Source: Tannerella sp.
Lineage (GTDB): Bacteria > Bacteroidota > Bacteroidia > Bacteroidales > Tannerellaceae
Reading direction: 5' to 3'
DNA length: 35,673 nucleotides
Assembly (NCBI GenBank): GCA_031257565.1
Contig: JAIROL010000269.1
Location: forward strand, 1 to 35,673
The notes beneath the pieces are model-generated. The model searched no databases. It was not told where the DNA came from and worked only from the letters and a program-made list of their open reading frames with translations. This document shows, piece after piece, positions 828 through 8,557 of the stretch (positions are counted from its first letter, which is position 1; every line of letters begins with the position of its first letter). The position numbers and the translations under genes were made by a program.

Positions 828-833
828 ATCAAA

Positions 834-995
834 TTATTTAAGGACAGCTCGCATGTCGACTATCTCGCAAATCGGATCATACGATTCCCACCAAATTGCA
901 AACTTCGACTTCATTACTCCCTTTGTCTCGTCTTTTTTAATGCTGCCTTTCGCCGCCTTTTTTGTTGTTTCTTTTGTCGTTTCTTTTCTTTTCAT
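834..995 (-). CDS. Putative antitoxin partner of the PIN toxin (53 aa, below ORF-track cutoff)
   Basis: Minus-strand ORF MKRKETTKETTKKAAKGSIKKDETKGVMKSKFAIWWESYDPICEIVDMRAVLK, stop 6 nt before the toxin start. Confidence 0.6.
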   Translation of the reverse strand: MKRKETTKETTKKAAKGSIKKDETKGVMKSKFAIWWESYDPICEIVDMRAVLK

Positions 996-1084
996 GTCTG
1001 TATAATTTTATCCTTATCTACGCCACAAAGATATATATAAATATATAAACAAACAAAAAAGAGCGAACATGAAAAAATGAAAAA

Positions 1085-1190
1085 AGTTACCAAATCGGTA
1101 ACCGGAATAAAAATAGTCTAAGGGTAGAAGTTGGCCGTTTTTGAGCTATCTCTTTAGTAAGTTGTAATCGGTTACTAAATCGGTAACCGG
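1085..1190. promoter_or_regulatory. Two imperfect inverted-repeat operator-like sites (GTTACCAAATCGGTAACCGG and CGGTTACTAAATCGGTAACCGG)
   Basis: Direct reading; a related half site AAAATCGGTAACCGGAATAA recurs at 12861-12880. Confidence 0.5.
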
Positions 1191-1312
1191 ACAATAAAAT
1201 AGGATGATTGACATTTTTTACTGGAAAACGCAATTTTTTTACGGGAAAACGCAATTTTTTTGTGGTAAAACGTATATTTGCGATCTATTAATCGCTTAAA
1301 AAAAGTATAACA

Positions 1313-1477
1313 ATGAACGAAAGTAAAGAAAGAATTGATTATCTCTTTAGTAAAGAGGCAATTGAATATGTCGAAAAGGTAAGCAACCTGTTAGACGGCA
1401 TTATTTTGAGACTGGAAAAGGCGCTGGAACTGAAAGAACGGTTATTCGCGGGCTGCAATACGAAGAATATCCAATAA
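1313..1477 (+). CDS. Small hypothetical protein (54 aa)
   Basis: MNESKERIDYLFSKEAIEYVEKVSNLLDGIILRLEKALELKERLFAGCNTKNIQ; preceded by TATATTTG at 1273-1280. Confidence 0.5.
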   Translation: MNESKERIDYLFSKEAIEYVEKVSNLLDGIILRLEKALELKERLFAGCNTKNIQ

Positions 1478-1489
1478 TAAACACAATTT

Positions 1490-3394: not shown

Positions 3395-3571
3395 TCAGCT
3401 ATTCTTTGTTTCAAATCTACCCTCATCTTTAAATAAAGATTCAAATATATTATCGTATAGATCGGATAAACGCGTTTTGTCTTCGGGGGTTAGTCTGCCT
3501 GTTTCTGATACCTCTGATTTTGTTTCGATATATCCTGTATTTTCTTTCTTCGGTATATATTCTTTTCCCAT
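3395..3571 (-). pseudogene. Truncated 58-aa copy of the N-terminus of the 168-aa membrane protein
   Basis: MGKEYIPKKENTGYIETKSEVSETGRLTPEDKTRLSDLYDNIFESLFKDEGRFETKNS*; stops where homology to copy A ends. Confidence 0.75.
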
Positions 3572-3680: not shown

Positions 3681-4709
3681 TTAGTTTTTAAAAAGTGATC
3701 TAATTCTGTCTATATCTTCTAATTGGCTAAAGTTTTCTTTGTAAAGAATTTTTTTTAGTTCAATCATTTCAGAAAACTCAAAGCCTTTTATTTTTTCCAT
3801 AAATTCGTATTCATCTTCAACAATTTTTTTCCACGATACCGCATTTATATCAATATGTGATAGAGTATAAATTATATCCCTGCATTTTTTTCGATCATTA
3901 TAAATGTTTTCTATCTGATTTTTGAAGTCTCTTATTTTTTTATTTGCAAGAATCTGGCAATCAAGATTCTCTAAGCAATATTTAATTAAACCCAATTTTG
4001 CTTTTTGAAATGGTTTTTTATTCGAGCGTAGCGCATTTCTTATTGTTACAATTAGCTCATCTATTACAAGATCGCTACCAACCTCGTTCGCATCAAAAAT
4101 TGCATAAGATAGATGTTCTACTACCGCATCCATGTTAGGAGAATATAAATTAGCAGAAGATACCGCTCGTATTTCTATATTAAATCTTGCGGAACTTATT
4201 TTTTTATCATTAGAAACATCTAAGTACTTTATTTTTTTGTCAAAATCGGCGTTTAGCCTTATCATTTCAGACATAAACTTCCCCTCAATGTCTTTTATAT
4301 GCGCATAATTGCCAATTACTATGAATGTAGCAAGTATGCCAACAAAACCCAATATTAAGGCAATGTTATTAGGCTCTATCACTTGATTAATAGAAAAGAA
4401 AATGTTTGCGCCTAATAGAATAATTATTATTCCGATTAGAAACCAATGGCTTTTAAGCAACAAATAAAAAAAATTATTCAGTCCTTTTGGCTCATTTATT
4501 AGGTTCTCCAACACTATTAGTCTTTTTCCTATCCTAATTAATGAACTATTTATGATTTCTATTTGCCTGTTATCCAGATTTTTTTGCTCATTTATTAGGT
4601 TTTCCAATGCGGAAATCCTATCGGCAACGCTTTTGACGGTGTTTTTCTTTTCTGTTATAGTGGCTTTATTTTTACAGCCAAAAAGCTGATTGATACTATT
4701 TTTCTTCAT
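3681..4709 (-). CDS. Coiled-coil membrane protein with two TM helices, co-transcribed with the repressor
   Basis: 342 aa; repeated ALENLINEQK/VLENLINEPK segments, TM blocks WFLIGIIIILLGANIFFSI and IALILGFVGILATFIVIG; start overlaps the repressor stop. Confidence 0.65.
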   Translation of the reverse strand: MKKNSINQLFGCKNKATITEKKNTVKSVADRISALENLINEQKNLDNRQIEIINSSLIRIGKRLIVLENLINEPKGLNNFFYLLLKSHWFLIGIIIILLGANIFFSINQVIEPNNIALILGFVGILATFIVIGNYAHIKDIEGKFMSEMIRLNADFDKKIKYLDVSNDKKISSARFNIEIRAVSSANLYSPNMDAVVEHLSYAIFDANEVGSDLVIDELIVTIRNALRSNKKPFQKAKLGLIKYCLENLDCQILANKKIRDFKNQIENIYNDRKKCRDIIYTLSHIDINAVSWKKIVEDEYEFMEKIKGFEFSEMIELKKILYKENFSQLEDIDRIRSLFKN

Positions 4710-5073
4710 AACACAACTGTTTTTTAAGTATTCTGATAATATCCTCTTTGTCTTCTAATATTTTTTTTAAATATTCTATCTCTTTGTTTTTAGATTCTAT
4801 ATTCCCAGATAAGGAATCTCCATAGATGGATGCTGCATTACTATTCCCTCCTTTCTGCGTAATATGATTTTCATTACTGGCGTCTTCGTCAAAAAAAACA
4901 CTAACAGGAACATCTAATACTTTTGCTATTCTTTCAAGCGTAGAGATGCTTGTTGATCCATTCTTAATCATTTTATGAATAGAAATATCACTCATTCCGA
5001 CCTTGCCGGCAAGGTCCCTAATCGTTATGCCTTTCCTCTCTACTAAATCTCTAATAATTAATAAATTAGCCAT
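4696..5073 (-). CDS. XRE-family HTH transcriptional repressor (prophage-repressor-like)
   Basis: GITIRDLAGKVGMSDISIHKMIKNGSTSISTLERIAKVLDVPVSVFF helix-turn-helix; divergent from the early genes. Confidence 0.85.
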   Translation of the reverse strand: MANLLIIRDLVERKGITIRDLAGKVGMSDISIHKMIKNGSTSISTLERIAKVLDVPVSVFFDEDASNENHITQKGGNSNAASIYGDSLSGNIESKNKEIEYLKKILEDKEDIIRILKKQLCYEEK

Positions 5074-5120
5074 ATAAACAAAACTTTATTTATATATTTA
5101 TATATTTTTAACTATAAAAA

Positions 5121-5153
5121 TTTGACACAAACTAAACTATTATGCTATATTTG
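5121..5153 (+). promoter_or_regulatory. Rightward early promoter, Bacteroidetes type
   Basis: TTTG (5121-5124) - 21 nt - TATATTTG (5146-5153), 52 nt before the 5205 ATG. Confidence 0.65.
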
Positions 5154-5204
5154 CCCCATAAATATATAAACAAATAAATACACAAACAAATAAAGGAGTA
5201 AAAA

Positions 5205-5405
5205 ATGAAAAAAAGAAAAAGTATTAGGGGGATGATATCCGGGCTGGAGCCGGAAGAAAGCGTAGTATTCAAGGGTGGAGATTATCGTTTATCATCAATA
5301 AGGAATACCGCGTCGAGCGTGAGCGCGGAAACCAGGAAAAACAGGATGTTCTCAGTCTCTATCTCTTACGAGAAAAACCTAATAAGGGTAACCAGGTCCA
5401 AGTGA
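5205..5405 (+). CDS. Small basic, probably DNA-binding early phage protein
   Basis: 66 aa; RBS-like AAAGGAG upstream; first gene of the rightward operon. Confidence 0.6.
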   Translation: MKKRKSIRGMISGLEPEESVVFKGGDYRLSSIRNTASSVSAETRKNRMFSVSISYEKNLIRVTRSK

Positions 5406-5550
5406 AAATCCGGTTTAGCTCCCTCACCGCCCAAAACGAAGAACAGGTAATTCGCCTGTTTAAGCATTTAGGCATTTATGACAAGGTAATATAAAAATAA
5501 AGACAATGAAACAAAAAACAAAATACGAATCAATGTAATACTATAAAACC

Positions 5551-6205
5551 GAATCCGGGTTAGCCCCTACACCGCCGGATGAGGTAAAAAAATAATTGGT
5601 GATTAGGTTGCGGCATCGAGCCTGGGATGCCGCGTAATTGCAAAGAAGTGGAATAAGGCGTTACTTCCACGAGTGGTCAGGTGTTTTGTGCAAACCTGCG
5701 GCGTTGATAGCAGTAATGTTATTTAACGGCAAGACTTGGTTTAAAGTCGAAGTAGCGAATCGGCAACCATCGCAGGCTAAGAAGCGGTAGCAATATCGTG
5801 AATAGCAGATTCAGTGCACAAAAAATTGAAATCAAAGGATAATTATCTAAGGTCACGTGCCCTCACGATGCGGTGAGCTGGAGGCGGTAATGGCCATAAG
5901 ACTGCATGCAGGGATGTGATAATGAATCCGCAATTATACTCGAAGGCTCAAGCGGGCGCGACGCGGGGAAATTGTACAGGCAGGCTTGCATCAAAACCTG
6001 TTGATTTGAGGGATAAAACGGCATATAACCGAAGTATGAATCACTTCGGCGTGGCAAGGCGGGGTTGATAGCCCGATACGGAAAGACCGGGCGATCCCTT
6101 ATCAGGATGAAGTTTTGGCGGTTTTAAAGATGCATAGAAGAAAGAAAACCGTTGGTGTGGAGATTAACTGGCCACTGTGAAAGTACCGGAAAACTTTCTT
6201 TTTAA
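5551..6205 (+). ncRNA. Candidate large structured non-coding RNA (~650 nt), family not determined
   Basis: No substantial plus-strand ORF. Many complementary helices, e.g. ATCCGG/CCGGAT (5553-5558/5575-5580), GCGGCATC/GATGCCGC (5610-5617/5626-5633), GTGGAATAA/TTA-C-TTCCAC (5648-5670), CTCAC/GTGAG (5862-5866/5873-5877), CCGAAGT/ACTTCGG (6029-6035/6043-6049), GCCCG/CGGGC (6071-6075/6088-6092), enclosing TGAGGGAT/ATCCCTTA (6007-6014/6094-6101), CGGTTTT/AAAACCG (6119-6125/6145-6151). Ends in GAAAGT-ACCGGAAA-ACTTTC-TTTTT. Confidence 0.6.
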
Positions 6206-6235
6206 CGCAATTTAAATCACAAAAATTATGAAAAC
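6179..6235. repeat. 57-bp perfect direct repeat, copy 1 (hairpin/T-run + leader + ATGAAAAC)
   Basis: GAAAGTACCGGAAAACTTTCTTTTTAACGCAATTTAAATCACAAAAATTATGAAAAC, identical at 6555-6611. Confidence 0.95.
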
Positions 6236-6581
6236 GAAAGCAATCGGCAGCATAGAGAATACCGCTGAATTTTGGAATAGGTACTACAGTAGTCCCGCAG
6301 TCATTCTGCGGGATGCGATGATGGCGAACATCAATAGCTCGATACGATATCCAAATTATGACGACGACGACAATTGTACAGTCGAGGTATTTCTCGTCAG
6401 CCTCGGCGTTGAATCATGTTATAAAGCTATGGCGGCTGCCAAGATCGTTGTTAGTGAGTTGAACTCCATTTCCGGAAAGATGTTTTATCTGGAAACGGCG
6501 TTTACTACACATGGTAGCCTTGCAATATCCATAAAGGAATATCCCACATACCCCGAAAGTACCGGAAAACTTTCTTTTTAA
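6228..6581 (+). CDS. Hypothetical protein, paralog of 7173-7547
   Basis: 117 aa; shares FW..YYSSPA, CTVEV, SCYKAxAAA, LNSIS, SISIKE-like motifs with the 124-aa ORF. Confidence 0.75.
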   Translation: MKTKAIGSIENTAEFWNRYYSSPAVILRDAMMANINSSIRYPNYDDDDNCTVEVFLVSLGVESCYKAMAAAKIVVSELNSISGKMFYLETAFTTHGSLAISIKEYPTYPESTGKLSF

Positions 6582-6611
6582 CGCAATTTAAATCACAAAA
6601 ATTATGAAAAC
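6555..6611. repeat. 57-bp perfect direct repeat, copy 2
   Basis: Identical to 6179-6235; encodes the C-terminus of the 117-aa protein and the leader/start of the next gene. Confidence 0.95.
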
Positions 6612-7176
6612 AGAAAAGTATCAGGAACTTTACAAAAAAGATTACGATGCCTATAAGCATGGCGATCGTAATTTGCTGGCAATATCTCTGGCAACCCGTT
6701 ACGACGGGATGACGGGGGATGACATTGAAGACCTCCTGACGGGAGCATTCAATTTGACGGCGACTACTTACAGGCGTTTGATGAGACATCCCAACGCTGG
6801 GGCCAAACTCGTTAAAAGGCTTGCGGCGGACGGCAAATTCCTTGCGACTAAATGCGATGCAAGCCGTTGGTGCGAAGCCACGCCGGCAGAACTCGACGTT
6901 GCGGCAAGGTGGTGCGTCGAGAATGATTGTACGTATGTTATGGCTGAATTTGCGGAGCATCCCGCCACATCGTCTAAGACTCTTAAGTGCCTGTACAAAA
7001 ACTGCGAAGATAGAGACTGGCTTTGGGACATATTGTTAAATAATCCGGCCACGCCGCACGATGTCGTTACGGATATTGAAAAAAGAATAAGTATGGTAAT
7101 GCTTAATCAAAAAAGAAGAATTAAAAAACGCCTAACAAGGCCATTCAATAATAAAACTAAAACAATAAAATCATGA
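6604..7176 (+). CDS. Hypothetical helical-repeat protein (variant-leucine-rich-repeat-like)
   Basis: Repeated LMRHPNAGAKLVKRLA / FAEHPATSSKTLKCLY / LLNNPATPHDVVTDI units. Confidence 0.6.
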   Translation: MKTEKYQELYKKDYDAYKHGDRNLLAISLATRYDGMTGDDIEDLLTGAFNLTATTYRRLMRHPNAGAKLVKRLAADGKFLATKCDASRWCEATPAELDVAARWCVENDCTYVMAEFAEHPATSSKTLKCLYKNCEDRDWLWDILLNNPATPHDVVTDIEKRISMVMLNQKRRIKKRLTRPFNNKTKTIKS

Positions 7177-7547
7177 AAACAAATGTATTTCACGGAGTAA
7201 AGATGGAAGACTCCAGTAATTTTTGGGAAACTTTTTACTCAAGTCCGGCAAGTTTTTTAAAGGAGGCCATAAGCCTCAAGATAGACAATCCGATTTTTTA
7301 CCCTGATCAGCATGAAGACGACAGGTGTACGGTTGAGGTAGCCCTTTCCGGCTACAACGTCGATTCATGTTACAAGGCCGTTGCGGCCGCAGAATCGCTC
7401 ATTAATGGATTAAACTCCATATCGAGAAAGACTTTCAGCCTAAACACATGGTTTACGGCTTACGGATGCCTTGGGATAAGCATTAAGGAATCCGAAACAT
7501 TAAAACCGGAAAATGAATCGCCTGAAAATATTAACCTGACAAATTAA
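7173..7547 (+). CDS. Hypothetical protein, paralog of 6228-6581
   Basis: 124 aa; see paralog motifs above. Confidence 0.75.
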   Translation: MKTNVFHGVKMEDSSNFWETFYSSPASFLKEAISLKIDNPIFYPDQHEDDRCTVEVALSGYNVDSCYKAVAAAESLINGLNSISRKTFSLNTWFTAYGCLGISIKESETLKPENESPENINLTN

Positions 7548-7560
7548 AGGAGCAATAACT

Positions 7561-7740
7561 ATGATAAAGCTGTATACAAAAAAAGAGGCGGCAGAAATAC
7601 TAAGAATAAGCCTGCCGACATTAGACCGCCGCGTTAGTTCGGGGCGGCTGCAGTCTACCAAGACCGGCAGGAGGAGACTGTTCACGAAAGAGGATATTGA
7701 TTTGCTAAATAAAAGTGGAGATGCGCGATATTACAAGTAA
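7561..7740 (+). CDS. Excisionase/MerR-type HTH_17 DNA-binding protein (59 aa)
   Basis: MIKLYTKKEAAEILRISLPTLDRRVSSGRLQSTKTGRRRLFTKEDIDLLNKSGDARYYK; AAAGGAG RBS upstream. Below ORF-track cutoff. Confidence 0.8.
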   Translation: MIKLYTKKEAAEILRISLPTLDRRVSSGRLQSTKTGRRRLFTKEDIDLLNKSGDARYYK

Positions 7741-8557
7741 AGATTTGTTCGGAAACGAAACGACAGTTAAAATTCCTGCCGTAAAAAGGCGGACAAAGAG
7801 TATTTACGATGACTACGAGGGATTTGAACGCAAATTTAAAAAAGAGCGCAAAAAGACGACAAACGACTGTTATACGCCTCCGGAGATATACAATTGCGTA
7901 GTTAATTATGTAGCGGGCAAGGTAGACTTGTCCGGTCGCGAAATAATCAGGCCGTTTTGGCCTGACGGAGATTACGAGAATGCCGTATACCCGGACGGAT
8001 GCGTTGTAATTGACAACCCGCCGTTTTCAATAATAACAAAGATATGCAGGTTTTATATTGAAAGAGATATCGGGTTCTTTCTATTTGCGCCGCACCTGAC
8101 GTTATTTTCGGTGGATGCGGATTGCACCGCAGTCGTATGCGCCGCAAATATAACGTATGAAAATGGAGCGGGGGTAAAGACGTCGTTTCTATCGAATTTA
8201 TTCGGAGACATAAGGGTCATCGGCTGCCCCGTCCTGCTCCGGAAGCTGAATGAGGTATCCGCAAAAAGTCCGCAGGCTGAATATCGATACCCCAGGGAGG
8301 TGCTTACCGCATCACGGGTTGCGGCGATTGTAAACAAAGGCGTTGGAATTGCGCTTAAAAAAAGCGACTTGTTTCACGTTCGCGGCCTTGATGCTCAAAA
8401 AAGCCGTAAAACGAGTATTTTCGGCGCCGGCTTTTTTTTGTCCCAAGCGGCGGCAGAGGCAACCGAGGCGGCAGAGATAGCAGCAGCGGAAGCAAAGGAA
8501 GCAATCGTTTGGCGGTTGTCTTACAGGGAAAAGGAGATAATAAAGTTGTTAAAATAA
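7715..8557 (+). CDS. Phage adenine-specific DNA methyltransferase-like protein
   Basis: CVVIDNPPFSIITKI (DNPPF motif IV); conserved YTPPEIY region; GTG start. Confidence 0.6.
   Translation: MEMRDITSKDLFGNETTVKIPAVKRRTKSIYDDYEGFERKFKKERKKTTNDCYTPPEIYNCVVNYVAGKVDLSGREIIRPFWPDGDYENAVYPDGCVVIDNPPFSIITKICRFYIERDIGFFLFAPHLTLFSVDADCTAVVCAANITYENGAGVKTSFLSNLFGDIRVIGCPVLLRKLNEVSAKSPQAEYRYPREVLTASRVAAIVNKGVGIALKKSDLFHVRGLDAQKSRKTSIFGAGFFLSQAAAEATEAAEIAAAEAKEAIVWRLSYREKEIIKLLK

Follow-up and report, generated by a model that had tools for sequence, protein, structure and literature searches.

The window analysed here, which is the whole 35,673-base stretch of DNA, is one contig (C51) of a 4.47-Mb draft genome and bears the genome of a tailed phage. 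Its other phage genes include a PAPS reductase-like gene, a cytosine methylase, terminase subunits, and a portal. The terminase is similar to the terminases of Bacteroides, Flavobacterium, Cellulophaga, and Polaribacter phages. From this and from the type of the promoter described below, the host is probably a member of the Bacteroidales. A tRNA scan detected no tRNA genes across the window, and the scanned proteins of the window included no recognisable reverse transcriptase. The locus under study lies in the early region, where the following features are found.

4696-5073, minus strand: repressor-like gene
5122-5153, plus strand: early promoter TTGACA-18-TATATT, which can also be read as TTTG-21-TAnnTTTG (Bacteroidales -33/-7 type), from a sequence scan
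5205 onward, plus strand: early genes
5205-5405, plus strand: first early gene, 66 aa, without a family match
GTG start at 5402, plus strand: possible 30-aa ORF, overlapping the first early gene
5495-6227, plus strand: gene-free stretch, longer than any other on the window's phage side
6179-6203, plus strand: 6-bp stem GAAAGT/ACTTTC (6179-6184/6193-6198) with an 8-nt loop, followed by five T residues (6199-6203)
6179-6230 and 6555-6606, plus strand: 52-bp exact direct repeat, from self-comparison
7561-7740: excisionase-like gene

The promoter at 5122-5153 is of the Bacteroidota kind and is the sole strong promoter upstream of the gene-free stretch. A promoter scan detected no good internal promoter inside the stretch. 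Because there is one strong promoter upstream and no good one within, the stretch would belong to the early transcript. A 25-nt repeat (84% identical) occurs both within the possible 30-aa ORF (5407-5431) and at the start of the gene-free stretch (5552-5576). Downstream, genes 6228-6581 and 7173-7547 encode paralogous small proteins (50% identical) that flank an unrelated 190-aa orphan. Further along, a 280-aa protein (7715-8557) strongly matches phrog_21498, a family of unknown function. Proteins of this type were found in Bacteroides, Porphyromonas, Eggerthella, and archaeal virus records, partly annotated as methyltransferase, and four copies were present within one related genome (G030). 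Elsewhere in the window, a minus-strand 58-aa ORF (3395-3571) is a truncated duplicate, repeating almost exactly the beginning of a 168-aa protein (1788-2294).

The gene-free stretch is non-coding. An earlier note on this DNA, made from the letters and a list of ORFs, had found no meaningful plus-strand ORF here, and stop counts, a coding model, and Pfam-negative six-frame reads all bear this out. The three plus frames of 5551-6205 contain 12, 16, and 12 stops, which is a random-level density. Trained on genes from the window itself, a 3-periodic coding model scored all six frames as negative or near zero over 5450-6170, while a control gene scored positive. Six-frame reads of the stretch gave no Pfam match. 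A decayed protein gene was also rejected, because comparison of the six frames with Pfam and with the window's early proteins matched only the terminal repeat. In other words, the sole match to neighbouring proteins was to the ten C-terminal residues encoded by gene 6228-6581, and it lies within the DNA repeat.

The 3' end of the region carries the stem-loop and T-run at 6179-6203, which may terminate transcription. The earlier note had proposed that a stem and a T-run close the region. Both are present, but the element is weak, with two G-C pairs and a score under the threshold of a terminator scanner, and it is shared with a repeat copy that ends a protein gene. The copy at 6555-6606 encodes the last residues and stop codon of gene 6228-6581 and then forms the leader of gene 6604-7176. 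The terminator-like element is thus not private to the putative RNA, as the same 52-bp repeat ends gene 6228-6581. In a global fold, the bases of the element were partly paired elsewhere according to the partition function. The exact 52-bp direct repeat suggests that gene 6228-6581 was recently inserted or that its junction was recently duplicated.

Pairing probabilities (p) were obtained from a partition function computed over 5530-6212. The predicted fold has the following elements.

5610-5633, plus strand: hairpin GCGGCATC/GATGCCGC, 8 bp, p=0.97
5672-6176, plus strand: predicted core, closed by helix 5672-5680/6168-6176 (9 bp, p=0.93)
5683-5997, plus strand: predicted long-range helix 5683-5699/5980-5997, with 16 Watson-Crick pairs and two interruptions
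5702-5728, 5733-5748, 5755-5773, 5776-5806, 5808-5833, 5837-5929, and 5930-5975, plus strand: hairpins in the multi-branch loop closed by helix 5683-5699/5980-5997
6007-6101, plus strand: junction with helix 6007-6014/6094-6101 (p=0.86) around hairpin 6029-6049 (p=0.85)
6117-6153, plus strand: predicted hairpin GGCGGTTTT/AAAACCGTT, 9 bp, p=0.88

The helix sequences named in the earlier note were all located where it had placed them, including GGTTG (5606-5610), CAACC (5764-5768), hairpin 6029-6049, and the junction strands TGAGGGAT (6007-6014) and ATCCCTTA (6094-6101). The multiway junction proposed from these strands survived in part. Its enclosing helix and hairpin 6029-6049 are predicted as listed above, but the second hairpin (6071-6092) is not preferred, and a rival pairing (6062-6066/6070-6074) has a probability of 0.41 in the partition function. 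Folded alone, the junction piece (5984-6126) did not outperform its shuffles (z -0.35). A proposed long-range contact between GGTTG and CAACC is likewise available in that both sequences are present, but at a length of 5 bp such a contact is expected by chance.

Is the fold better than chance? All fold tests used dinucleotide-preserving shuffles. The minimum free energy (MFE) of the whole region gave z-scores from -1.9 to -2.3. For 5600-6210 the MFE z-score was -1.9, with 4 of 120 shuffles equally low. Two measures of how well defined the fold is were also applied to 5600-6210; all figures for this segment are flattered, because its limits were picked after inspecting the fold. Mean positional entropy had a z-score of -2.05 (1 of 120 shuffles equally low), the fraction of bases paired at p>0.9 had a z-score of 2.5 and was reached by none of 120 shuffles, and on both measures the segment came first of the 58 equally long tiles of the window. 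The signal was weaker for 5550-6205, where 6 of 40 shuffles matched the entropy and 4 of 40 matched the p>0.9 fraction. For helix 5683-5699/5980-5997, 11 of 1000 shuffles attained the same score, but so did 12 of 115 natural segments of the window.

The earlier description of the region as dense in strong local helices did not hold up, as local folding is unexceptional. In 150-nt windows the region had a mean z-score of -0.97, compared with -0.55 (sd 1.26) over the window's whole plus strand, and lower values than the region's occurred in several coding stretches. When known RNAs were put through identical scoring, E. coli RNase P RNA and four rRNA domains had MFE z-scores of -2.3 to -2.9 and entropy z-scores of -1.0 to -2.4. 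Yet these measures separate real RNAs from other sequence poorly, because an unrelated gap in the window (828-1489) is on par with the region in definedness (entropy z -2.3) and the minus strand of the region is similar to the plus strand on MFE alone (z -2.4). Taken together, the predicted structure appears modestly beyond chance, with a signal that varies with the boundaries chosen. The thermodynamic tests are compatible with a large, ornate RNA without demonstrating one.

Judged by covariance-model searches, the region is not a recognisable GOLLD, ROOL, OLE, raiA, or intron RNA. In an all-family Rfam scan of the window, no family attained its gathering score, and relaxing the filters over 5400-6300 (E up to 5) brought up only three chance-level matches and no GOLLD. 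The earlier note could not match the region to GOLLD or ROOL either. GOLLD was assessed through all-family Rfam scans of the window alone; RF01998 is a group II intron family. No catalytic core of a group I or group II intron was matched in the window or in 5400-6300. Pieces of a group II intron were seen on another contig of the same genome (C23, L096 1501-1733), at the end of the stretch examined. ROOL was not found by covariance model in the whole of the phage's own genome assembly, a search that had no positive control; RNase P RNA, sought there as the search control, was not found either.

The region resembles ROOL RNA (RF03087) in its comparable length (the model has 574 positions), its phage or prophage location, and its elaborate predicted fold, but it differs in having no covariance-model match in the window or its own genome and no nearby tRNA. 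GOLLD, too, is a large phage or prophage RNA of unknown function, as the putative RNA here would be. The region differs in matching no Rfam family, and GOLLD often runs to more than 800 nt and is located close to tRNAs (PMC12286853). Genes for GOLLD and ROOL frequently lie close to phage tRNA islands, which is typical rather than strictly defining, and both RNAs form RNA-only cages, a homo-oligomeric nanocage in the case of GOLLD, whose function is unknown (PMC12286853). OLE, raiA, and group I and II introns are likewise large structured bacterial RNAs, but the region has no Rfam match to them and interrupts no recognisable gene.

Homologs that could be examined for covariation, as the earlier note had proposed, were absent from every collection searched by DNA, covariance-model, pattern, and neighbour-gene searches. 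No homolog was found by blastn against phages and plasmids, by megablast against E. coli genomes, or by DNA searches of 199 related genomes, 395 genomes of the order, and 125 of the family. Single-sequence covariance models, built from 5698-5836 for the 199 relatives and from 5998-6125 for 385 genomes belonging to the order, also found none. Viral and genome contigs scanned for exact 17-mers and 16-mers gave no extendable match; matches read individually were tRNA D-arm-like (L065), inside a large phage gene (L066), or inside a SusC-like gene (L073). Weak order-wide BLAST matches were rescored at 33 loci and none was convincing; a few were slightly above their 8 shuffles, under a scoring too lenient to decide. 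A 31-nt match in one genome (G523) fell within a coding gene (of L087), and further large gaps without ORFs, seen in phage loci related to this one (L056, L061, and L016), held small genes or unrelated sequence and gave no Rfam match. The fold is known from a single sequence, so covariation, the usual proof and the only strong test of such a structure, speaks neither for nor against it. Neighbour genes 6228-6581 and 6604-7176 had no relatives among viral contigs or phages, and for the 117-aa copy of the paralogous pair the 199 related genomes yielded none either. Because these adjacent genes are orphans too, the early module appears poorly sampled, and the missing homologs are thus weak evidence against function.

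The region is best read as an orphan, possibly structured RNA of the early transcript. We give a probability of roughly 0.4 to a functional structured early RNA of a Bacteroidales prophage that acts in trans. In this reading, transcription starting at the 5122-5153 promoter would cover both the RNA and the first small gene, and the long-range helices 5672-5680/6168-6176 and 5683-5699/5980-5997 would close a branched structure. The RNA would have its end at the T-run (6199-6203) or be cleaved close to it, which would release it from the message, and as a stable early phage RNA it would then work in trans like other large phage RNAs. This reading is favoured by the lack of a coding signal, the random-level stops, and the strong early promoter with no good internal one. 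It is also favoured by a definedness of 5600-6210 that exceeds 119 to 120 of 120 shuffles and falls within the range of RNase P RNA and rRNA domains, by a long-range helix that just 11 of 1000 shuffles match, and by a length and phage location that resemble those of known large phage RNAs (PMC12286853). It is weakened by the lack of homologs and hence of covariation, by boundary-dependent definedness and ordinary local structure, by the similar scores of gap 828-1489 (definedness) and the minus strand (MFE), by a feeble, duplicated terminator-like end, and by the absence of a tRNA from the window, unlike the frequent setting of GOLLD and ROOL.

The region could also be non-functional or decayed intergenic DNA, that is, rearrangement filler in a fast-changing early region with a chance-level fold. 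We regard this as a serious possibility, if not a probable one. It would fit the lack of conservation in any collection searched, the stop density, the ordinary local folding with boundary-dependent definedness, and the exact terminal repeat, which shows recent rearrangement. However, 5600-6210 tops the 58 window tiles in definedness, no decayed protein was matched, and compact phages rarely retain 0.7 kb of idle DNA inside an operon. The region might instead be a structured, untranslated cis-acting leader through which processive antitermination or attenuation governs either readthrough into the genes starting at 6228 or their translation. The region ends 22 bases upstream of the start codon of gene 6228-6581, which the stem and T-run directly precede, and it has no good promoter of its own. 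Such a leader is less likely, though still a serious rival; no Rfam cis-regulatory family was matched, known phage antitermination RNAs are much shorter than the region, and the stem-loop and T-run also lie within the end of gene 6228-6581 and hence are not leader-specific. A DNA element, such as a replication origin or a packaging or regulator-binding region, could be sited between a divergent repressor/early promoter and an excisionase-like gene. It is highly improbable here, given that there is no direct-repeat array (iterons), that repeat families are short and mainly two-copy, and that operator-like inverted repeats lie at 5084-5195, outside the region.

It is doubtful, though conceivable, that the region encodes a new class of large (~550-600 nt) structured RNA, made early in Bacteroidales phage infection and unrelated in sequence to GOLLD and ROOL. 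One sequence without relatives cannot establish a third class from this window. If real, the new class would be a third independent phage class, which would mean that such large RNAs arise repeatedly, and it would give a Bacteroidales system for studying large phage RNAs.
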